The notes beneath the pieces are model-generated. The model was not told the origin of the DNA, searched no databases, and was given only the letters and a program-made list of their open reading frames with translations. Made by a program: the position numbers and the translations under genes. Shown here piece after piece: positions 19,761 through 46,428 of a DNA stretch of 64,000 bases. Position 1 is the stretch's first letter. The number at the start of each line of letters is the position of its first letter. The DNA is from Thermococcus chitonophagus (GTDB lineage: Archaea; Methanobacteriota_B; Thermococci; Thermococcales; Thermococcaceae), in NCBI RefSeq assembly GCF_002214605.1, contig NZ_CP015193.1, forward strand, positions 1,840,978 through 1,904,977, given 5' to 3'.

Positions 19761-19786
19761 GATTACCACCGCTGAATTCTGAAAAC

Positions 19787-20863
19787 CTAATTTTTATATC
19801 TCTTTCGATGGACATCTGAACGAGAGGTCATTCTCTTAAGTATCGGAAGAGGAAGTATAGCCAAGAGCATGAAACCGACCCCGCAAACTTTCCCCTTGGC
19901 AGTTGATGTTCCCAGAGTGGAATAATTGGAAGACGAATAGGAGCTCACGGGAGAAAATGTTGTCGTAGTGTTCTTCCCAATGGCTGTGCCTGTGGTCGTT
20001 TTCTCAATATAAGGAGAATTGGCTTTACAGATCGTTACGTTAACTATTTTGACCTCACTCGGAAACCAGAAGCCCTTTATAGCATTCGTGATATTGACGT
20101 AGAAGAGAGTAATGTTTCTCGTCCAATTACCTTTCCTCAGCGTGAAATAGACTGGAAATTGAGTCCAGTTGACCACCAAGGGGCGCTGATGGGAGAATAT
20201 CAAGCGGCAGTACTTTGAATTTTCAACAGTGCGGTTTGGAACGATAAAGAAGTCCGCAGAAGGTGGAATCTTCATAGCCGTTTCGTTAGAAATCCGAACC
20301 CAAGTGCCGTTAATGAAAACCTGCTTAGCCTGAAACTGTCTTGGAATTTCAATCTTCCAGTAGTTAATGGTATATTTCATCCCCCTCGGAAACCCAGAGA
20401 GGTAGATATTGGCCCGCTCAATGCAGAAGTTCCTTGTGTCGAGCTTGAAAACATGGTTCAAGTTTACACCCTCCTGAGAGTCCGCGGAGTAAGCGAAAAC
20501 GCTCACGTTAACGTACCAAGAACCGTTCACGTAGTCTACTGCATTGAAGTGAACCCAACTCACGTTCCTCGGCGCGTAGGGTGGAAGGGCCGAGAGCAAT
20601 GCTGGGGTAAAGTTGAGGAGGTAGAGCTGAGAACCATCAAAGAGCAGGAGGTAGTTGTAACTGTCGTAAACCTCGGCCCAGCAATTGTCCATACCACAGG
20701 TTATGCCATAATTGTCAACCTCAGCATTAATTAGGGCAGTTGTTCCGTTTGAAAAGACCGAATACCTTACCTCGTAGAGAAAGCCTCCTTTGTCCACATA
20801 ATATGTTGCAGAGACGGGAACGGCGAGGAAGAGGAGGACGATTAGAATTACTAGCCGGGACAT
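19787..20863 (-). CDS. Secreted protein with Thr/Ser-rich linker and CGP-CTERM-like anchor
   Basis: 358 residues from ATG 20863 (GAGGTGAT upstream). Layout: signal peptide (LVILIVLLFLAVPVSA), an extracellular domain of about 270 residues with many N-x-S/T sites, a Thr/Ser-rich linker (TTTTFSPVSSYSSS), then KVCGVGFMLLAILPLPILKR. That tail resembles the Thermococcales CGP-CTERM surface-sorting signal, but with Cys-Gly-Val in place of Cys-Gly-Pro. Motifs such as YLLLFDGSQLYLLNFTPA and FPVYFTLRKGN recur in the neighbouring truncated gene. Function unknown. Confidence 0.75.
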   Translation of the reverse strand: MSRLVILIVLLFLAVPVSATYYVDKGGFLYEVRYSVFSNGTTALINAEVDNYGITCGMDNCWAEVYDSYNYLLLFDGSQLYLLNFTPALLSALPPYAPRNVSWVHFNAVDYVNGSWYVNVSVFAYSADSQEGVNLNHVFKLDTRNFCIERANIYLSGFPRGMKYTINYWKIEIPRQFQAKQVFINGTWVRISNETAMKIPPSADFFIVPNRTVENSKYCRLIFSHQRPLVVNWTQFPVYFTLRKGNWTRNITLFYVNITNAIKGFWFPSEVKIVNVTICKANSPYIEKTTTGTAIGKNTTTTFSPVSSYSSSNYSTLGTSTAKGKVCGVGFMLLAILPLPILKRMTSRSDVHRKRYKN

Positions 20864-20875
20864 TTTTATCACCTC

Positions 20876-21012
20876 TTCGGTTTTTCAATAGCGCGGGCTG
20901 AACCGAAACTGGCGACGGGAGTAGGTGATGGGCCCGCAAACCAATGAACCCCCTGAAGGGCAGGGTAATGACACCCAAGAGGAACCCCCGCCCCTCAGGG
21001 CGAGGAGGTCAG
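20876..21012. mobile_element. Relic of an IS200/IS605-type element end (hairpin-rich)
   Basis: This G/C-rich non-coding block contains several small hairpins: CCCCGCCCCTCAGGGCGAGG near 20986-21005, CCCCCTGAAGGGCAGGG near 20950, and GCGGGCC/GGCCCGC-type arms near 20895-20940. The outer border CTGACCTCCTC (minus strand) is repeated at 45860 on the plus strand. Such hairpin ends are typical of IS200/IS605 elements in Thermococcales; no transposase frame remains. It abuts the truncated 3' end of the next gene. Confidence 0.45.
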
Positions 21013-21702
21013 ACTCCTGACCAGATTTTCCTTTTTATTTTCCTTTTTCAGGAGGAAGTAAACAGGAAAGACACTTGAGTTAACGATCTCAGTCGGGCCG
21101 GGAGACCATCTCAATGCTTCCTTGCTCATCGTTACCCAGGTGTCACTGACATTGGCTTGGCCCCATTTTTCAGAACTCTTCGATTGAAGTACTATTTTCC
21201 AGCCATCAATACTGTCTTTGAGTTCTCCTGTAGGGAGTTGGGGCCAGCTTATGTTCACAGGTTCGATACAGAATTTGCCCGGATTGAAGCGGTAAACGCC
21301 AGTAATCTCTGCCAGTGGAGGATAAAACGTGATGTTGATATACCAGCTTCCGTTTATGAAGCGCGCATCATGGAGCTGTAAGTCCAGAAGTGAGTAATAG
21401 TTGGGGTAGAGCGCTATGACCGCTGGTGTGAAGTTGAGAAGGTAAAGCTGGGAGCCGTCAAAGTAGAGGAGGAAACTACTGCCACCAAGAACTTCTCCAG
21501 TCGTGGCATTGTGGCAGTCTATTCCCGAGAGGGGCGGACAGTATGGCACGTACGTTAAAATATCAAGAGGGATAAGAGCGTCACTCCCGTTGGACATTAC
21601 GGCGTACCTAGTCTCAAGAATTTCTCCCTGAGCGGAGGCTAGTGATGAGAGCATGAGAAGTGCAAGTATGAGAGGAAAAAGATAACCCACCAGTTTGGAC
21701 AT
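20995..21702 (-). pseudogene. 3'-truncated paralogue of the upstream secreted protein
   Basis: 235 residues with signal peptide (LILALLMLSSLASA) and the same blocks as the 19787 gene: RYAVMSNGSDALIP, FLLYFDGSQLYLLNFTPA, FINGSWYINITFY, KFCIEPVNIS and FPVYFLLKKEN. Similarity stops where the hairpin relic begins; the last residues (SLTSSP) are encoded by the relic, and the Thr/Ser linker and membrane anchor are missing. It may still be secreted as a soluble protein. GGGGTGAT precedes ATG 21702. Confidence 0.65.
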
Positions 21703-21999
21703 TTTTAATCACCCCTTTAGATGTTTCCCAAAACAATAAACTCGCCCTCTTCTGTACTCGGGCTTCAACTTTTGTATCATGATGTTACACGGTCCAAAAA
21801 TATATGGTGCGAACTTTGTCAATAGATACTGCCATCACAGGTTACTGTTGAGATATTATAAAAGTTTATTGTATTAAAATTGCAATATTATGTTTAAATG
21901 TGCAGGGTAAAATCGATTACTCAATATCTAGTTCTTCTCATATATTGAGCAACTGTAAGGTCGTGAATCCAACAAGAGCAGGAGATAGCTAAAAATAGT
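21703..21999. other. A/T-rich intergenic region
   Basis: About 300 bp between the two minus-strand secreted-protein genes. It must hold the promoter and ribosome-binding site (GGGGTGAT) of the gene starting at 21702. I see no coding frame, repeat or RNA gene in the rest; A/T content is clearly higher than in the surrounding genes, as in decayed or acquired DNA. Confidence 0.4.
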
Positions 22000-22902
22000 T
22001 TAGGCCCTCTTCTTTAACACAGCAACAAGCACTATAAGCAGGATAAGGAACGCTCCAACCACCCAAGAATTCCAACCCCTACAACTGGAAAATTCCACAG
22101 TTCTATCCACAACGATATCTGGCATTAATTCTGAGTTTCGGTACGTTATCCTGTAAAGCGGGAAAGCTTTCAATTCTTTTCCGTCATAGAAAAATATCGA
22201 CACGGGAGGCAGTTCATCGATCCTCGCTATCTTCACCCTAGATAAGTTTTCAATATCAGGGAGCACGACATAAGGGTAGCCCCAGTCCTTACTGCCCATG
22301 TAGGAAGCTGGATATATCAAAATGCCATTCTTAAGAAATACGGCCCTAAGATCCTCAACGCCGAGAATTGTGTAGTTGAGGAGTTTGTATAAAGGAATTG
22401 CATACATCCTTGAGCCGTTAGAAAATACTACGTTGCCGTCCCTAATCTCCCCAGGAACCCCTTGGATTGGCTTAAAAACTTTAGAACGATTTCCCAAGGG
22501 AAGTACACACTTCTTATTAATGTCCAATAGGTAGTAGTTAGCGTTATGCCCAATTTTAGGAGGATTCTCGCCATAGAGGTAGACGAGCTCTGAACCGTTA
22601 AAGCTTATTAGGGAATCGGTATTTGAAAGCTGTGGTAGGTAGAGGATAGAATTTCCGTCAAAGTAAAAGGTGTAGTAAGTGAAGTTAATTGGGTCTAGAG
22701 AACAATTTGAGATGTTTCTCTTGAGGCCGGGGCACTGTCCATATGCCCCTATAGCCCAAGCAACCACGATAAATGCACTGCTGTTATCCGCGGGATAAAC
22801 ATTTATTGATGTTATAAAGCCATCTCCCATGCTAGCCAAGGAAAAAGCTGGATAGATAATCAAAAGAATACAAGAAAAGCAGAGTATGAGTTTATTAAAC
22901 AT
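22000..22902 (-). CDS. Secreted, C-terminally anchored protein of unknown function
   Basis: 300 residues from ATG 22902 (GGTGAG upstream, overlapping the stop of the preceding gene). Signal peptide KLILCFSCILLIIYPAFSLA, an extracellular beta-rich region with many N-glycosylation sequons, and a terminal helix WVVGAFLILLIVLVAVLKKR just after SSCRGWNS. The FYFDGNSILYLPQLSN block recalls LLLFDGSQLYLLNFTP of the neighbouring paralogues, so it may be a distant member of the same set. The overlap implies coupling to the DUF4855-like gene. Confidence 0.65.
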   Translation of the reverse strand: MFNKLILCFSCILLIIYPAFSLASMGDGFITSINVYPADNSSAFIVVAWAIGAYGQCPGLKRNISNCSLDPINFTYYTFYFDGNSILYLPQLSNTDSLISFNGSELVYLYGENPPKIGHNANYYLLDINKKCVLPLGNRSKVFKPIQGVPGEIRDGNVVFSNGSRMYAIPLYKLLNYTILGVEDLRAVFLKNGILIYPASYMGSKDWGYPYVVLPDIENLSRVKIARIDELPPVSIFFYDGKELKAFPLYRITYRNSELMPDIVVDRTVEFSSCRGWNSWVVGAFLILLIVLVAVLKKRA

Positions 22903-23844
22903 ATGGCTCACCAAACTTAACGTTACAATAATTTTGCAGTTTATCAATGACTTCAAGGGCAACGCTGAAGTAGTAGGCTCTATGCTGGAATTTTCTTCCA
23001 ATAACATCCTTTTGGACACTTACATAATCTCCTGCGTACTTAGTTGCCAGTGTTGGATCTGATACTCTACAGTTTTCCCAGCAAACTCCTATATTACATC
23101 TCATATTTTCAGGGCAATCCTGGTCACTATTACAGTCTATTCCCAAAACTGTCCTATCAGCCTCCATTTCGATATATAGGTCATTTTCATATAACCATTT
23201 GGGAATAGTTTTAAACTGATCATGGGAGTATGGAACTTGATAATAATTTGGTTGTGGGAAGATATAATCAAAGTACTCTTTTATACTATCCTCATTTTCT
23301 CCCAAACTTGAATTATTATCCAAATAATCAACACTACGTCCCCTAAGTGCTGGTATCCAGATAAATTCAAGGCCATGGTCTTTAATATACTCTGACATTT
23401 CTTTAATTAACTCAGCGCTAACTTTCTTTCCTTTATCATATCCATAAGTTGTCTGGATTACACTTTCAAGACTCCAATAAAAGCCCACAAAATTTTGAAG
23501 ATGGAGAGTATCTAAAAAGCCATCAATCCATTTTTGCCAATAAGAATTTTGAAATCTACCTTCTGAGTCATCTCTTGGAATTTTGCTATGATACCTATAA
23601 AAGGGTATAGGAGCATAAAATTTACTGTCACCAATTTCTTTTTTAAGAATTTTGCAAGTTGCCGGCCATCCTCGTATCCATCCTTTGTAAAGTTACATTG
23701 TTTTCCTTCCCCATCTAGGGCAATAAGACAGTCAAAGCCCCTTTCCTTAAAATCTTCTGTGATTGCTTTTTTATCTCCAAGTTTCATTCTTGATTCATAC
23801 GTTGTTCCGTTCCATCTAAACCACCATAAACTAAAAGTTGTCAT
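22895..23844 (-). pseudogene. Gene split by a -1 frameshift at A AAA AAG (DUF4855-like)
   Basis: Two frames, 23512-23844 and 22895 to about 23640, join into one protein of about 316 residues if the ribosome slips back one base on A-AAA-AAG near 23640. Joined text: WWFRWNGTTYESRM..., then KEIGDSKFYAPIPFYRYHSK, DTLHLQNFVGFYWSLESV, YFDYIFPQPNYYQVPYSHDQF and a Cys-rich segment (CNSDQDCPENMRCNIGVCWENC). The GFYW and PQPNYY blocks recall DUF4855 (tentative). No signal peptide is seen. Loss of one A from an A7 run, a sequencing error, or programmed frameshifting would all explain it. Confidence 0.6.
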
Positions 23845-23859
23845 TTTCTATTCACCTAT

Positions 23860-23906
23860 AATTATTACCTGATAATTAATTATTACATGATAATTGAGCA
23901 TATAAA
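23860..23906. promoter_or_regulatory. Tandem 18-bp palindromes and TATA box of the split-gene operon
   Basis: AATTATTACCTGATAATT (23860-23877) and AATTATTACATGATAATT (23878-23895) are adjacent and differ at one base; each has AATTAT/ATAATT arms. On the minus strand they follow a CATTTATA box (about 23901-23908) and precede ATG 23844, so they cover the expected transcription start. Likely an operator for the 22000-23844 genes; the regulator is unknown. Confidence 0.6.
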
Positions 23907-23980
23907 TGTTTTTCCATCTTATTTCAAACATAGATATTAAATTAGGGATAATAGAAAGTAGGATATTATATCCTACAGTC

Positions 23981-24169
23981 CTATCTCGCCCGCACCTCGA
24001 TTTTCCTGCCAAGAACCAGCTCGACAGCCTTAACTGCTGCTCCACCTGTCCCAACTGCAATCCTAACTTGATCCCTGGGGACGTAAACTATTATCTTCTC
24101 TCCATCGAACTCTAAGTCGATTATATCAACCCTTAGCATCTCCCTTAACCTTTTGTACATCTCCTCCAT
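23981..24169 (-). CDS. Small KH-domain-like protein
   Basis: 62 residues from ATG 24169 (AGGTGGT upstream). IIVYVPRDQVRIAVGTGGAAVKAVELVLGRKIEVR is a KH-type core in which VGTGGAAVK replaces the usual GxxG loop, close to the KH part of NusA-like archaeal proteins. It probably binds RNA. It follows the NMNAT gene by 9 bp and belongs to that operon. Confidence 0.7.
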   Translation of the reverse strand: MEEMYKRLREMLRVDIIDLEFDGEKIIVYVPRDQVRIAVGTGGAAVKAVELVLGRKIEVRAR

Positions 24170-32118: not shown

Positions 32119-32365
32119 TTACCCCCGCCATCTCGTATATCTTCCTCGCTATCTCCTCAGCCTTCTTCTCGTCCCTAAGCTCCTTGATTATTATCTTGCC
32201 ACTTGGGTAAACGCTAACCTCGTAGCCCTCAAATTCCGCAACGAGCATTATCCCAGGGATTAAGGTCTTCACCTTGTAGCCTTTGGCTTTCATTTCGTTT
32301 GCGAGCTTTGAGACGTCAAGCTTTATCTCCTTCCAGAGGTACAGCTGAACCAGAACTCCCCCCAT
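32105..32365 (-). CDS. Small protein with a single TBP-like repeat
   Basis: About 86 residues; the start is unsure (ATG 32365 lies within the lon 3' end; no good ribosome-binding site). [28 protein letters not shown] followed by a helix ([13 protein letters not shown]) resembles one half-repeat of TATA-binding protein (beta strands then helix), tentatively. It overlaps lon and the glycosyltransferase gene, so it is coupled to both. No function is known to me. Confidence 0.55.
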
Positions 32366-35273
32366 GCTCGTGCACGGCTTCGCCACCAGCATTTCCGGCA
32401 ACCCCCATGGGAAGGCTATTCCTTACCTTCTCAATCAACTTCCTCTTCTTCTCGCTCTCCACGAGGGCTATCTCCAACACTTCATCAATCCTCTCAACCG
32501 GGATTATCTTAATCTTTGCCCTCTTGTCCGAACTTAGGAAGACATCCTTCTCGTTAGCCTTGGGTATTATTACCTCCTTTATTCCAGCTTCTATTGCTGC
32601 TTCAATCTTGGGAGTTACACCACCAACCGGCAGGACTTCGCCCCTTACGCTCAGAGAACCTGTCATTGCAACGTCCTGCCTCACAGGAATTTCCTCTAAA
32701 GCTGAGATTACCGCGGTGGCAACGCTTATGCTCGCCGAATCACCTTCAACGCCCTCGTAGGTTTGCAGGAACTGGACGTGGATGTCGTAACGGCTTATAT
32801 CCTCACCCTTGTACCTCTTTATTATAGCGGAAACGTTCTGGACTGCCTCCCTAGCGATCTCGCCAAGCTTTCCTGTTACTATTATCTTACCCTCCTCCTT
32901 GCTCGCAGCTGGAGCGACTATTGCCTCTATCGGAAGAACGATACCGCTCATCTCCCCAATTACGGCCAGACCATTGACCCTACCTACCTCACCGCCCTCA
33001 ACCCTGATTACTTGGTACTCCTTCTTCCTCTCTATGTACCAGTCCGCGAGCTGCTTCTCGAGAGGCTTAGCGAGCTTAAGAGCCTCAAGAACATCTTCCC
33101 TAGTCACGTACTTCTTGCCCTTCCTCACCGCTATGTCACCTGCGGCCCTAACAACACCACCAAGGTCTCTGAGCCTTAAGGTGAGGTGGCCCTTCCTTCC
33201 CGCTCTCTTTTGGGCCTCCCTGATTATCTCCTCCACAGCATCCCTAGTGAAGTGCGGAATCCTCCCGTCCTTCTTGACTTCCTGGGCGACGAACTGGACT
33301 AACTTCCTTCTGTTCTCGGGAGTGTCAGGCATTGTAGTCCTCATGTAAACTTCATAACCGTAACCCCTTATCCTTGAGCGCAGAGCCGGGTGCATCTTCT
33401 CTATTGTATCGAGGTTGCCCGCGGCAACCAAGATGAAGTCGCATGGCACTGGCTCAGTTCTAACCATTGCTCCACTTGAGAGCTCGCTTTGGCCGGTAAT
33501 CGGGAACTTCTTCTCCTGCATAGCGGTGAGCAGGCTCTGTTGCATCTTCAGGCTCAAGGTCGCGATCTCATCTATGAAGAGGACTCCCTTGTGGGCCCTG
33601 TGGATCATTCCGGGCTCGACCCTCTCGTGGGCTGGGGTTCCCAATCCTCCTGAGTTCTTAACGAGCAAACCATTGGCCAAGAGGTTGCCGGTCTCTGTTG
33701 TTACGTTGTATGTTTCTGAGACCTGGACTTCAATATCGACATCCTTGAAGTTATCTCGGATTGATTTTATGTATTCAAGCCCCCGAACTAGTTTCTCCGC
33801 TTTTTCTTTGTTATACATTGGCAGTAATTCTTTCAGGAATACCTCCACATTCTTTGGTTTATGGCTAATTAATAGCCTTAAGAGGACATTACCCCTCTCT
33901 GTTTTCTTCTCAGATATAGAGTTTGCCTTTATGCCCAGAACCAACAATAACAGTTTTATCTCTTCAAGGAATTTTCTCCTGTTTTCAACTAAATTGGGAG
34001 TCGTTGCTATGCTAAAAGTGAGAGTCCCCTCAAGGTATCTCTTTTTGCCATAATTATAAACACTACCGTCTGAGTCGAATAATCCTCTCAAAAATTCCCT
34101 TATGGTATCTTTTGACACCATAACAAATGGAGGAACTTTTATCTCCTGGGTTGTTTTTTTACCTACAGGAAATCCTAATGCAACGAAGAACCTTATTATC
34201 CTCCTATCCGTCGTTCTAAAGATGTAACTGGTGCCTCTAGCAGAGTCATTTTTCCTTATTTCATAGGGAAACCCCCCAAATATATCAGCGAGATCCTCCT
34301 TAATCTTGTTTAATGTATCTACATTCGAAGAGATTATCGAGAAGGTATTCATTCTAATGTCAATACTACCATCGCCAAGAGCGTATCCGTAAAGCCGTGC
34401 TATTTTTGGTAACCTGGGGTCATTTGAATATAAGGGTATCAAATCAAGCTTCTTTAACTCTTCAAGCAATTGCACGCTCTTTGGCTTCATTCCTTGGTAC
34501 CACCATCTTAGGGTGCTTTCTTTTATTTTCAAGATCTTAGCAGCTCTCTTATATCCGACCTTAGGGTTCCTTTCCCTGAATTCGAGCCATAGTTTGTACT
34601 GCCTGAACTTTGTAAGCTCCTCATTACCATAAGTTCTAACTATATCCTCCTCTGTTAGAACTGGGAACTCTGTATATATAAGGGGCTCTCCTGAATAATC
34701 TCTAGCCTCGATTAGTCCTTTTTCTGAATATACCTTATGTTCGGGGGTCAAGATGACTACTTTCCCATTGTACTCCACAGGGACAACATTAAATTCTCCA
34801 ATTCTCTTATTTACTGCAAGTACCTTCGTTTCTTTGAGTTTTCCATTTTCATAGGTATAGACGTAATAGTTCTTATCCCTAATGTCAACTCCTATGTACT
34901 TAACTCCATTAATCTCCAGCTCCCTAACCCTGTCTTTGTATTTACTGATTATTGAGTCCACGAAGTCCCCAATCTTCATTAATCTTATACCTTGTTCCGA
35001 TTTTATCAACACTATGTCACTTACCACGAACGATTGGAAAGGATCGTGACGCACGTCGCCAAGGAGAGCGCCCGCATGGGCTCCTGTAGCGTCGACAAAG
35101 GGCGCTTTCTTCCTTCCACAGTTGTCAACCAACAGCTTTGGAACTAGAGCTTGAGTCTTGAACCTCATGTTAGCTACAGCCATTAAAGCCACGAGAATCA
35201 CAAAAACTCCAAGGAGGATTGTGTTTGGATCTCCCTTACTCATGAATATTGCCATTGCGACTACGAAGAACAC
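32316..35273 (-). CDS. lon: LonB protease with intein, N terminus missing
   Basis: 985 residues including a 460-residue intein. LonB is the membrane-bound ATP-dependent protease of archaea. Two TM helices (residues about 1-35), sensor/Walker B region ([12 protein letters not shown]), and the Ser-Lys protease domain ([27 protein letters not shown]) are present. The N-terminal part with Walker A (usually GEPGTGKS) is missing: Lon likeness begins only at about [15 protein letters not shown] in the frame just before GTG 35273, next to the broken XPB gene. ATPase activity is therefore unlikely unless the assembly is wrong here. Confidence 0.85.
33654..35033 (-). other. Lon intein with LAGLIDADG homing endonuclease
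   Basis: 460 residues inserted between DVRHDPFQ and [12 protein letters not shown]. It starts with Ser ([10 protein letters not shown], block A), has TPEHKVY (block B), two dodecapeptide motifs ([13 protein letters not shown] and [11 protein letters not shown]) of a LAGLIDADG endonuclease, and ends [10 protein letters not shown] before the Ser +1 residue. The penultimate residue is Lys instead of the usual His, which could slow Asn cyclisation. Lon inteins at this site are known in other Pyrococcus. Confidence 0.9.
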
Positions 35274-35292
35274 GAAGAACAGCAGGTAAGAT

Positions 35293-35967
35293 TTAATGCT
35301 CTCCTGCTCCTTTGCTTGGTAGTAAGGTGTGAAGGTTATCCGCCCTCTCGGGAAATGCGGTTAATCCCAACCTATAAGGAGCGGCACTCATCTGGGCTAT
35401 ATTCCTGTAGGCCTCTGAGGGAAGGTGGTGGCATTCGTCAAACACTATAAGGAAGAACTTATCCCCCAGGATTTCAGCGTTTATGTAGGCTGAGTCATAA
35501 GTTGTGACCGTTATAGGCTTCAGCTCCTTTTTCTTTCCCGAGAATTCTCCAACTTCACCGAAAATGCTGAGCCTCTCCTTCCACTGCTCCAGCAGAGCAA
35601 GGGTCGGGACGACTACTAGCGTAGATAGTGACAGCCTTCTTATGATCTCCATGGCAATTATTGTCTTCCCAGAGCCCGTCGGCAGAACTATTATTCCCTT
35701 CTTCTCCTTCATCCACTTCTCGACAGCTTCAACCTGGTAATCCCTAAGCTCAAACTCAACCTCATCGTACACGGGAGAAGGAATTGCATTCTCGAAGACG
35801 TGATCCTCGAATTCAATATTTTCCTGGGTTAGAAACTCGACTATGTCTCTATACCTGTAACCTAGAGCCCTGTAGCACTTACACCTAGGATCCCACTTGG
35901 CGTGAGGTACGTAGCCTTGTCCCTCTACCCTTATCGTTCCTTTGTCGTAGTAGAGCTTCATCCTCAT
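35293..35967 (-). pseudogene. XPB/Ssl2-type helicase, C-terminal half missing
   Basis: 224 residues. N-terminal damage-recognition region ([25 protein letters not shown]), then helicase domain 1: [14 protein letters not shown], Walker [20 protein letters not shown] and [18 protein letters not shown]. Family members continue for about 230 residues with helicase domain 2; here the frame leaves the family at about 35310 and ends with SKGAGEH, read from lon-derived DNA. It is thus a fusion point, not a natural stop. Divergent from the partner gene bax1. Confidence 0.8.
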
Positions 35968-35999: not shown

Positions 36000-37133
36000 A
36001 TGCTTCCAAAGGATCTCCTAGATGCGAGAAGGAGAAGTGGTAGGATTTACCTAAATTTCGCAACCCAGGATCACCTAAAATTGGCCAAAGCAGTCATAGT
36101 TGCCTTTAAATCAAGCATTGGTCAAAGCTATGGGGAGCTGCAGGAGAAGTTGAGCCACATGGAGAGGGCCGAAAACTATAGGAAGGTCAGGGGATTTGCT
36201 AGGATTATAGAGAGGGAGTGCAGGTTCGAAAGGCCAACCTCCCTTGATCCCCCAAAAGTTAGGAAGTTGCTTTGGGAGAGGGGGTACGTTACAAGCGAGC
36301 TTGAGAGGGCTAAGGTTCTCCACGAGGTCGCTGAAAGCTTGGGGGTCAGTATTGAGGAAGTTGAAAGGGCTATGTTCGCTGATCTTGACGAGGAGAAGGT
36401 ACTAGCGGAGGTTCCCGACATCTCGCCGGAAGAGCTCATAAGGAGATACAACCTCTCCTTACTGCAAACGCTGATGTTCAACGCCCTAAGGATGACCTTT
36501 AAGATCTCATCCAACTTTAAGGAGGTCTTTAGGGCCATAAAGAGGCTCGGATTAATGTACGAGATTTACGGAGAGAAGATAGAGGTTACCGGACCGGCCT
36601 CCCTCCTAAAGCTCACGAGAAAGTATGGCACCTCGCTCGCAAAGCTGATCCCAGGAATAGTGAAGGCCGAAGAATGGTGGATTTTTGCTGAAGTGCTCGA
36701 GGATAAGAGAATTTATAGGTTCGAGCTCTCAAGCGAGGATGAAGTTTTACTGCCCAAGATGGAAGTTGAGGTGGAGTATGACTCCTCACTCGAGAGGGAG
36801 TTCGCCGGAAAGATTAAGAGGATCCTGGGGGCCAACGTAATTTACGAGCCTGGGATACTTAAGGCTGGAGACTACATTTATATTCCAGACTTCTTGATCG
36901 AGAAGAATGGGAGGAAAGTGTACATCGAGATAGCCGGCTTCTGGACGAGGGAGTACATAAGGAGAAAGCTGAAGAAGCTCAAGGAGTTGGATGAGCCTTT
37001 GATAATAATAGCAAATGATGAGCTGTTGGCAGAGAAGCTCTCCAAGGTCGGTAAGGAAGTAATACTCATGAAGAAGGGCAAGATCCCCTATAAGGAGGTC
37101 ATCATGAAGATAAAGGAATATCTCAAATCTTAG
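36000..37133 (+). CDS. bax1: Bax1 nuclease (DUF790, XPB partner)
   Basis: 377 residues. Bax1 binds archaeal XPB and cuts DNA as a structure-specific nuclease in a presumed repair complex. MLPKDLLDARRRSGRIYLNF is the usual start; the C-terminal restriction-like core has YIYIPDFLIEKNGRKVYIEIAGFWTREYIRRKLKKL (PD-x-E-x-K-like, E-I-AGFW). It shares a 32-bp divergent promoter with the XPB gene. Its partner is broken in this sequence. Confidence 0.92.
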   Translation: MLPKDLLDARRRSGRIYLNFATQDHLKLAKAVIVAFKSSIGQSYGELQEKLSHMERAENYRKVRGFARIIERECRFERPTSLDPPKVRKLLWERGYVTSELERAKVLHEVAESLGVSIEEVERAMFADLDEEKVLAEVPDISPEELIRRYNLSLLQTLMFNALRMTFKISSNFKEVFRAIKRLGLMYEIYGEKIEVTGPASLLKLTRKYGTSLAKLIPGIVKAEEWWIFAEVLEDKRIYRFELSSEDEVLLPKMEVEVEYDSSLEREFAGKIKRILGANVIYEPGILKAGDYIYIPDFLIEKNGRKVYIEIAGFWTREYIRRKLKKLKELDEPLIIIANDELLAEKLSKVGKEVILMKKGKIPYKEVIMKIKEYLKS

Positions 37134-44842: not shown

Positions 44843-45613
44843 ATGATATTCAAGGCCAAGTTTGGGGAGCCTAAGAAGGGATGGGTAGTTATAGTGCATG
44901 GCCTAGGAGAGCACAGCGGGAGGTACGCGAAGCTCGTTGAGATGCTAGTTGAGAGGGGCTTTGCGGTATATACATTCGACTGGCCTGGGCATGGAAAGAG
45001 TTCAGGGAAGAGAGGACACACAAGTGTTGAGGAGGCAATGGAGATAATTGACGAAATTATTGAGGAGATCGGGGAAAAGCCGTTTCTATTTGGGCACAGC
45101 TTAGGCGGGCTAACTGTCATAAGGTACGCAGAAACAAGGCCCGAGAAAGTGAGGGGAGTTATAGCTTCTTCACCGGCGTTGGCAAAGAGTCCAAATACCC
45201 CAGGATTCCTAGTTGCGTTGGCGAAGTTCTTAGGTGTGGTGGCCCCAGGAATTACGTTTTCTAATGGGATCAACCCGAGCTTACTCTCAAGGAACAAAGA
45301 TGCAGTGAGGAGGTACATAGAAGATCCCTTAGTTCACGACAAGATAACGGCGAAGCTTGGAAGGAGCATATTCATAAACATGGAGCTTGCCCATAAGGAG
45401 GCCAAGAAAATCAAAGTGCCAATCCTACTCTTAGTAGGAACCCAAGACGTCATAACGCCCCCCGAAGGAGCCAGAAAATTGTTTGAGAAACTTAGAGTCG
45501 AAGACAAAGATATTAGAGAATTCAAGGGAGCTTACCATGAGATATTTGAGGATCCAGAGTGGGGAGAAGAATTCCATAGGGTGATAGTGGAGTGGCTGGA
45601 GAAGCGCAGTTGA
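44843..45613 (+). CDS. Alpha/beta hydrolase (monoglyceride lipase-like)
   Basis: 256 residues. IVHGLGEHSGRYAKLVEMLVERGFAVYTFDWPGHGKSSGKRGH is the monoacylglycerol lipase/lysophospholipase entry; nucleophile in FLFGHSLGGL, Asp in VGTQDVITPP and His in GAYHEIFEDPE complete the triad. A TTTATAAT box about 24 bp ahead of ATG 44843 suggests a leaderless transcript. Cytosolic esterase or lipase, substrate not defined. Confidence 0.92.
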   Translation: MIFKAKFGEPKKGWVVIVHGLGEHSGRYAKLVEMLVERGFAVYTFDWPGHGKSSGKRGHTSVEEAMEIIDEIIEEIGEKPFLFGHSLGGLTVIRYAETRPEKVRGVIASSPALAKSPNTPGFLVALAKFLGVVAPGITFSNGINPSLLSRNKDAVRRYIEDPLVHDKITAKLGRSIFINMELAHKEAKKIKVPILLLVGTQDVITPPEGARKLFEKLRVEDKDIREFKGAYHEIFEDPEWGEEFHRVIVEWLEKRS

Positions 45614-45717
45614 TCGATACATTCCAAACGTTCCTAGGGTACTGGGATGGGACGAAGGAAGGATAGTTAAGGTACATTACCAGGTATCCTGAACTATTTG
45701 AGAAGATAACATGGGAC

Positions 45718-46349
45718 TATGAAAAGGTATAAAATCAATTGGAGAGAATACCTCGAAATTGTGACCAGAAAGATAGAGATCGAGAAGTTAAAGGCTGCCC
45801 ACAATACCCTTATGTCTTCCCTAAAGGAAGTCCTACCCAAGGCACATGCAATGTTTGATCTGACCTCCTCCCCGCCCTGAAGGGCGAGGCTTTCAAAAGA
45901 AAAATGTAAACCAGCGATTCTCTTCGGACTCGAAGCAATAGCAAATCTCAATTGGACTGAAAGAATAAAAGGCCTAATAGCTCATGAATTCGGACACTTA
46001 CTTCACTGGCTAATTAGGGGAGAGAACATAGAGGAAATAGAGGACGAGCAGATAATGTGGCTCTACACTGAAGGATTCGCCCAGAGGAGTGAAGATATCC
46101 TCACTGGCAGACCATGGCACTTAGAAGAGAGGGAGTGGTTTAAGTGGTGTGAAAGGAACGAAAAAATGATAAAATCAGGAGTTCTTAAGGAGAATTAAAA
46201 ATGGAGAACCTTTAAATCCATTCTTTGGCTCATGGTACCAATTATTTGGGAAGCAATTTTGGGATACTATTTAGGATATAAATTTATCTTGTGGCTTGAA
46301 CGCCAGTATGAGCTAATGGAAATAGCAAGACTAGAGAAAACACGATAAA
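45718..46349 (+). pseudogene. Broken zinc metallopeptidase gene (HEFGH)
   Basis: The N-terminal part reads MKRYKINWREYLEIVTRKIEI... to KAHAMFDL, where the hairpin scar at 45860 interrupts it. Beyond the scar another frame reads PAILFGLEAIANLNWTERIKGLIAHEFGHLLHWLIRGE, with the zinc motif HEFGH and a downstream Glu (YTEGFAQ). A further frameshift near 46195 separates GEPLNPFFGSWYQLFG, and another near 46260 separates YYLGYKFILWLERQYELMEIARLEKTR. Just upstream (45614-45717) lies a decayed fragment of a second gene (RYPELFEKITWDYEKV). Dead gene. Confidence 0.75.
45860..45895. mobile_element. IS200/IS605-like hairpin scar
   Basis: CTGACCTCCTCCCCGCCC followed by TGAAGGGCGAGGCTTTC forms a GC-rich hairpin (CGCCCT/AGGGCG) in an otherwise A/T-rich decayed region. 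The same CTGACCTCCTC plus hairpin occurs, inverted, at 20985-21012. No transposase gene is nearby. It sits exactly where the metallopeptidase frame breaks. Confidence 0.5.
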
Positions 46350-46428
46350 AGAGAGGATCATGGAATTTTTAACCTAGCTAAGCTAAATTATTTATACTGC
46401 CCACGGAAAACTTAAAGAGGTGGTTATA

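Follow-up and report, generated by a model that had tools for sequence, protein, structure and literature searches.

The assembled chromosome of Pyrococcus chitonophagus GC74 (NZ_CP015193) contains a locus at which the gene for the XPB helicase, read on the minus strand, passes directly into that for the membrane-bound ATP-dependent protease LonB, such that neither gene is complete. Does this junction reflect the state of the living chromosome, or was it created when the genome was sequenced and assembled? The features on which the answer depends are as follows, numbered by position in the window (the whole 64,000-nucleotide stretch of DNA that was analysed):

35293..35967, minus strand: XPB 5' fragment, 217 native residues followed by 7 read out of frame; no helicase domain 2
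35315..35318, minus strand: deletion-type junction, at which XPB codon 217 runs into LonB residue ~109 in a different frame; 1453 bp missing compared with relatives
32316..35316, minus strand: LonB 3' fragment, beginning at residue ~109; neither start nor Walker A retained
33654..35033, minus strand: intein in LonB, 460 aa, Ser1...Asn, LAGLIDADG type, between DPFQ and SGGLG; outside the break
36000..37133, plus strand: Bax1 endonuclease, the partner of XPB; intact, with divergent transcription; PF05626

The junction and the missing block

The XPB reading frame opens with the ATG at 35967, continues as far as [18 protein letters not shown], after which it shifts out of frame into LonB, reaching a stop at 35293 after 224 aa, the final seven of which (SKGAGEH) are novel. 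LonB homology begins at 35314-35318 in a frame other than that of XPB. In blastn alignments with G003, the closest relative compared (DNA identity 89-92%), matches end at window position 35318 (G003 402040) and restart at 35315 (G003 403494) with 2 bp between, and G007 gives the same breakpoint distance; these positions locate the frame switch within a few bases that an earlier note had described. When full-length proteins of relatives served as queries (tblastn), XPB residues 1-217 of 449 matched 35967-35317 and LonB residues 109-1124 of 1124 matched 35318-32319. The break is precise to the base between flanks that are otherwise intact, and both gene fragments are free of frameshifts, given which the base quality near the junction looks good.

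Relative to the XPB-JAMM-LonB arrangement of relatives, a single block is absent from the window, comprising the C-terminal half of XPB (232 residues), a gene for a 128-aa JAMM protein, the lonB upstream region, and ~108 N-terminal residues of LonB, which include the Walker A motif GEPGTGKS. A comparison of gene order, proposed in the earlier note, identified five Pyrococcus relatives with the XPB-JAMM-lonB layout (G003, G007, and three further genomes), in which XPB and LonB occur in identical order at nearly equal spacing, ~1.45 kb apart; this bears out the suggestion that one deletion-type event accounts for both truncations. The losses originally listed, namely the XPB and LonB halves, are correct, and a third, the JAMM gene, had been overlooked. 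In relatives, this gene sits between xpb and lonB on the strand opposite to both, and its product carries an HSHP-x6-SxxD motif and a Prok-JAB domain (PF14464) and is related to AfJAMM (PDB 1oi0/1r5x). A JAMM protein of this Prok-JAB/AfJAMM type is expected here by synteny, yet it is wholly absent from this genome.

Of 74 Thermococcaceae genomes with a completeness of 90% or more, 73 have the LonB N-terminus with Walker A and 73 have the JAMM gene between xpb and lonB, the sole exception in both cases being this genome. The search for second copies that had also been advised found the XPB C-terminal half, the LonB N-terminal part, and the missing DNA to be absent across the complete 1,961,979-bp genome: the missing block as a DNA query returned zero matches, and protein queries with strong matches in complete relatives recovered here only distant paralogues or nothing. 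We therefore rejected relocation of the gene halves as an explanation.

Two other differences between the window and G003 were recorded. At 45595-46374, the counterpart of a 267-aa G003 ORF is divergent (51-64%) and matches in two frames, possibly through a frameshift or natural decay, and 19761-23983 is a lineage-specific island of ~4.2 kb, compared with 1.5 kb in G003, with five window ORFs lacking a G003 match.

The gene remnants and the age of the event

The XPB fragment, which is 94.9% identical in amino acid sequence to residues 1-217 of G003 XPB, resembles archaeal XPB (NF045503; the partner of Bax1) in retaining the damage recognition domain (XPB_DRD, PF18458) and helicase domain 1 (ResIII, PF04851) and differs from it in its out-of-frame ending and in the lack of helicase domain 2. 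As the earlier note had it, this last domain is gone: Helicase_C and ERCC3_RAD25_C (PF00271/PF16203) were detected by Pfam in G003 XPB and were absent from the window copy, and helicase domain 2 was not found elsewhere in the genome at the level of an orthologue. Bax1 is intact, as had also been stated, scoring 609 bits against NF053694 (cut-off 500).

The LonB fragment corresponds to archaeal LonB (TIGR00764 lon_rel; Haloferax volcanii HVO_0783) from residue ~109 to the end, retaining hydrophobic (transmembrane-like) segments, the remainder of the AAA+ region, and the LID and S16 protease domains (PF20436 and PF05362 in Pfam). The window copy differs in having no start, upstream region, or Walker A segment (about 108 residues). 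Its match to the NCBIfam model lon_rel begins at position 117 of 608, compared with position 1 for G003 LonB, and the P-loop is therefore absent, in agreement with the original observation; the AAA+ module with Walker A that characterizes a functional LonB is thus lacking, and the segment was not found elsewhere in the genome. The first usable start in the fragment is a GTG at 35273.

G003 LonB carries an intein at the matching site. The 460-aa Ser1 intein of the window is strongly unlike the 476-aa Cys1 intein at the identical G003 insertion point, and the exteins of the two proteins are 96-98% identical (98% in the C-extein), a combination that points to turnover or replacement of the intein within Pyrococcus. 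Intein homing was considered as a cause of the junction and rejected, since the intein lies ~280 bp away and is normally inserted, which leaves no link between the two.

The condition of the remnants bears on when the genes were broken. Values of dN/dS are 0.042 for the XPB fragment and 0.021 for the LonB C-extein (dN 0.0098 vs dS 0.47), with intact neighbours at 0.011-0.073 and Bax1 at 0.062 relative to G003. At 385 LonB columns invariant in four other aligned sequences, the window has one specific change, and the 985-codon LonB frame contains no stops or frameshifts. The relaxed selection and disabling mutations of an old pseudogene pair were thus not observed (dN/dS 0.02-0.04, no stops). 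By a rough estimate that compares dN 0.0098 with half the dS of 0.47 and charges all LonB amino-acid changes to the loss, neutral drift could span only ~4% of the branch. Such undecayed remnants imply that the event was very recent or never happened in the organism. An old loss, fixed in the P. chitonophagus lineage and leaving the fragments as decaying pseudogenes, has nothing in its favour except presence in the species' representative genome, and we find it scarcely credible in view of the low LonB dN, the open frame, and the ~4% bound on drift.

The same data could be read to mean that the truncated genes are functional, either as an ATP-independent, membrane-anchored LonB peptidase together with an XPB of DRD and helicase domain 1, or as a frameshifted XPB-LonB fusion. 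Consistent with this, the LonB frame stays open from the hydrophobic segments across the intein and through the S16 domain, and what is left of the genes is under purifying selection; however, recency fully accounts for the selection signal, lonB has lost Walker A and its upstream region, an XPB without domain 2 is no helicase by the known mechanism of its superfamily, and the reading frames differ at the junction. We judge this reading very improbable; even taken together, an old loss and functional truncated proteins claim only a small part of our confidence. If the junction were real, a LonB product could be started only inside the first hydrophobic segment (at the GTG) and would lack the P-loop, its expression would need read-through from the xpb promoter, and XPB would consist of DRD and helicase domain 1 only; both truncated products would be expected to be inactive as ATPases.

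Assembly error or recent deletion

For the record in question, Newbler, Velvet, and MIRA were used to assemble Ion Torrent data and 100-bp Illumina reads, in a study in which each genome was obtained as 1-6 contigs that were then joined by PCR, at very high nominal coverage (PMC5823998). The genome analysed was identified as this record by two features: its diacetylchitobiose deacetylase shows 100% identity across 267 residues with that of P. chitonophagus (PDB 8bgo), described in PMC9779004, and its integrated plasmid is bounded by 46-bp direct repeats, the att sites, exactly at the coordinates (start 1137169, end 1159084) published for NZ_CP015193 (PMC6972569). In this genome carA lies at 713 kb, and in the Papadimitriou 2016 genome its tag is CHITON_1946; unless the tags of the Papadimitriou genome do not follow gene order, the place of carA shows that genome to be a different assembly from this one. 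We take LN999010 to be that genome, an assembly of the type strain, DSM 10152, made independently of CP015193. LN999010 is cited for P. chitonophagus (PMC10025317). A literature search found no paper with the locus tag A3L04 or tying chitonophagus to LonB.

As far as can be seen, the junction is confined to this one assembly of GC74, and a recent event seen in one assembly is likelier to be a sequencing or assembly error than a trait of the organism. We thus lean toward the view that a misjoin during assembly or finishing produced the junction and that the living chromosome does not carry it; PCR or bridging products that were chimeric or shortened could, for example, have introduced it when contigs were joined. 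The absence of full-length LonB and XPB, earlier attributed to the cell, applies to this assembly only. Speaking for an artefact are the uniqueness of a loss that affects two near-universal genes, the lack of decay, the reliance on short reads and manual joins, and a second junction 50 kb away. This is another clean, repeat-free, out-of-frame deletion (genome G000:C1 1925907-1925932; ~460-480 bp relative to G003), which fuses the start of the first archaellin gene to an archaellin C-terminus and breaks the gene. It can also be counted toward a real deletion, as a second clean gene-breaking deletion in the same record.

Several causes of a false junction were examined. Dropout through base composition was rejected, the missing segment having 48% GC, similar to its flanks. 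The earlier note had mentioned an assembly collapse; as a collapsed repeat, this does not fit, because no direct repeat of at least 12 bp is shared by the two breakpoints and microhomology is at most 2 bp. Across ~337 kb of alignment with G003, clean indels occur in both directions at similar frequency, mostly at gene borders, from which it follows that the assembly is not generally full of such errors. A high background of gene-breaking deletions was also rejected, the archaellin gene being the only other clear out-of-frame break among the indels read closely. At a further junction, at 1729396, the breakpoints likewise fall within two G003 ORFs.

Other considerations weigh against an artefact. 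An overlap assembler needs molecules that span the junction, whether chimeras, PCR products, or a real deletion, and without shared breakpoint sequence there is no overlap on which a false join could form, so that some spanning molecule must have existed. Very high coverage should outvote chimeras, the fragments are free of frameshifts, and indels elsewhere are balanced in direction. These points leave room for a deletion that really took place, very recently, in the laboratory culture used for sequencing, and perhaps only in part of its polyploid chromosome copies; we hold this to be quite plausible, at somewhat less than even confidence. The resulting cells would have no functional LonB, no XPB, and no JAMM protein from this locus. 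As a mechanism, breaks 1.45 kb from each other would have been sealed by illegitimate end joining, with at most 2 bp of homology.

True deletion molecules are the simplest origin of reads over a repeat-free junction, and the base-clean junction with otherwise intact flanks also counts in favour of a deletion. Thermococcales are polyploid (PMC12713403). A second JAMM gene (166-aa frame) remains at 1476 kb of the genome, as does a further protein that has an S16 (Lon-type) protease domain but does not match the ATPase part of LonB. Additionally, XPB is dispensable: its deletion in T. kodakarensis causes only marginal damage sensitivity (PMC4471258), and two complete Pyrococcus genomes (G008 and G005) lack any XPB and retain the JAMM-LonB pair. 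The loss of XPB is therefore unremarkable, and it is the loss of LonB that is striking. That loss, unique among the 74 genomes, argues against a real deletion, as does the reported essentiality of LonB in H. volcanii (PMC4343526, PMC9263693); no study testing whether LonB is essential in Thermococcales came up in a literature search.

Implications for LonB in Thermococcaceae

If the junction is the misjoin that we favour, a reference genome for comparative work is falsely without LonB, XPB, and a JAMM gene, and the record deserves a flag. That P. chitonophagus GC74 truly grows without LonB, XPB, and one JAMM protease is, in our estimation, rather unlikely. Were it so, GC74 would, of the Thermococcaceae compared, be the first to lack LonB naturally, and a membrane-bound ATP-dependent protease would prove dispensable in a hyperthermophile. 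The cultured strain would then offer a ready test of the need for LonB in Thermococcales, the protein being essential in Haloferax.
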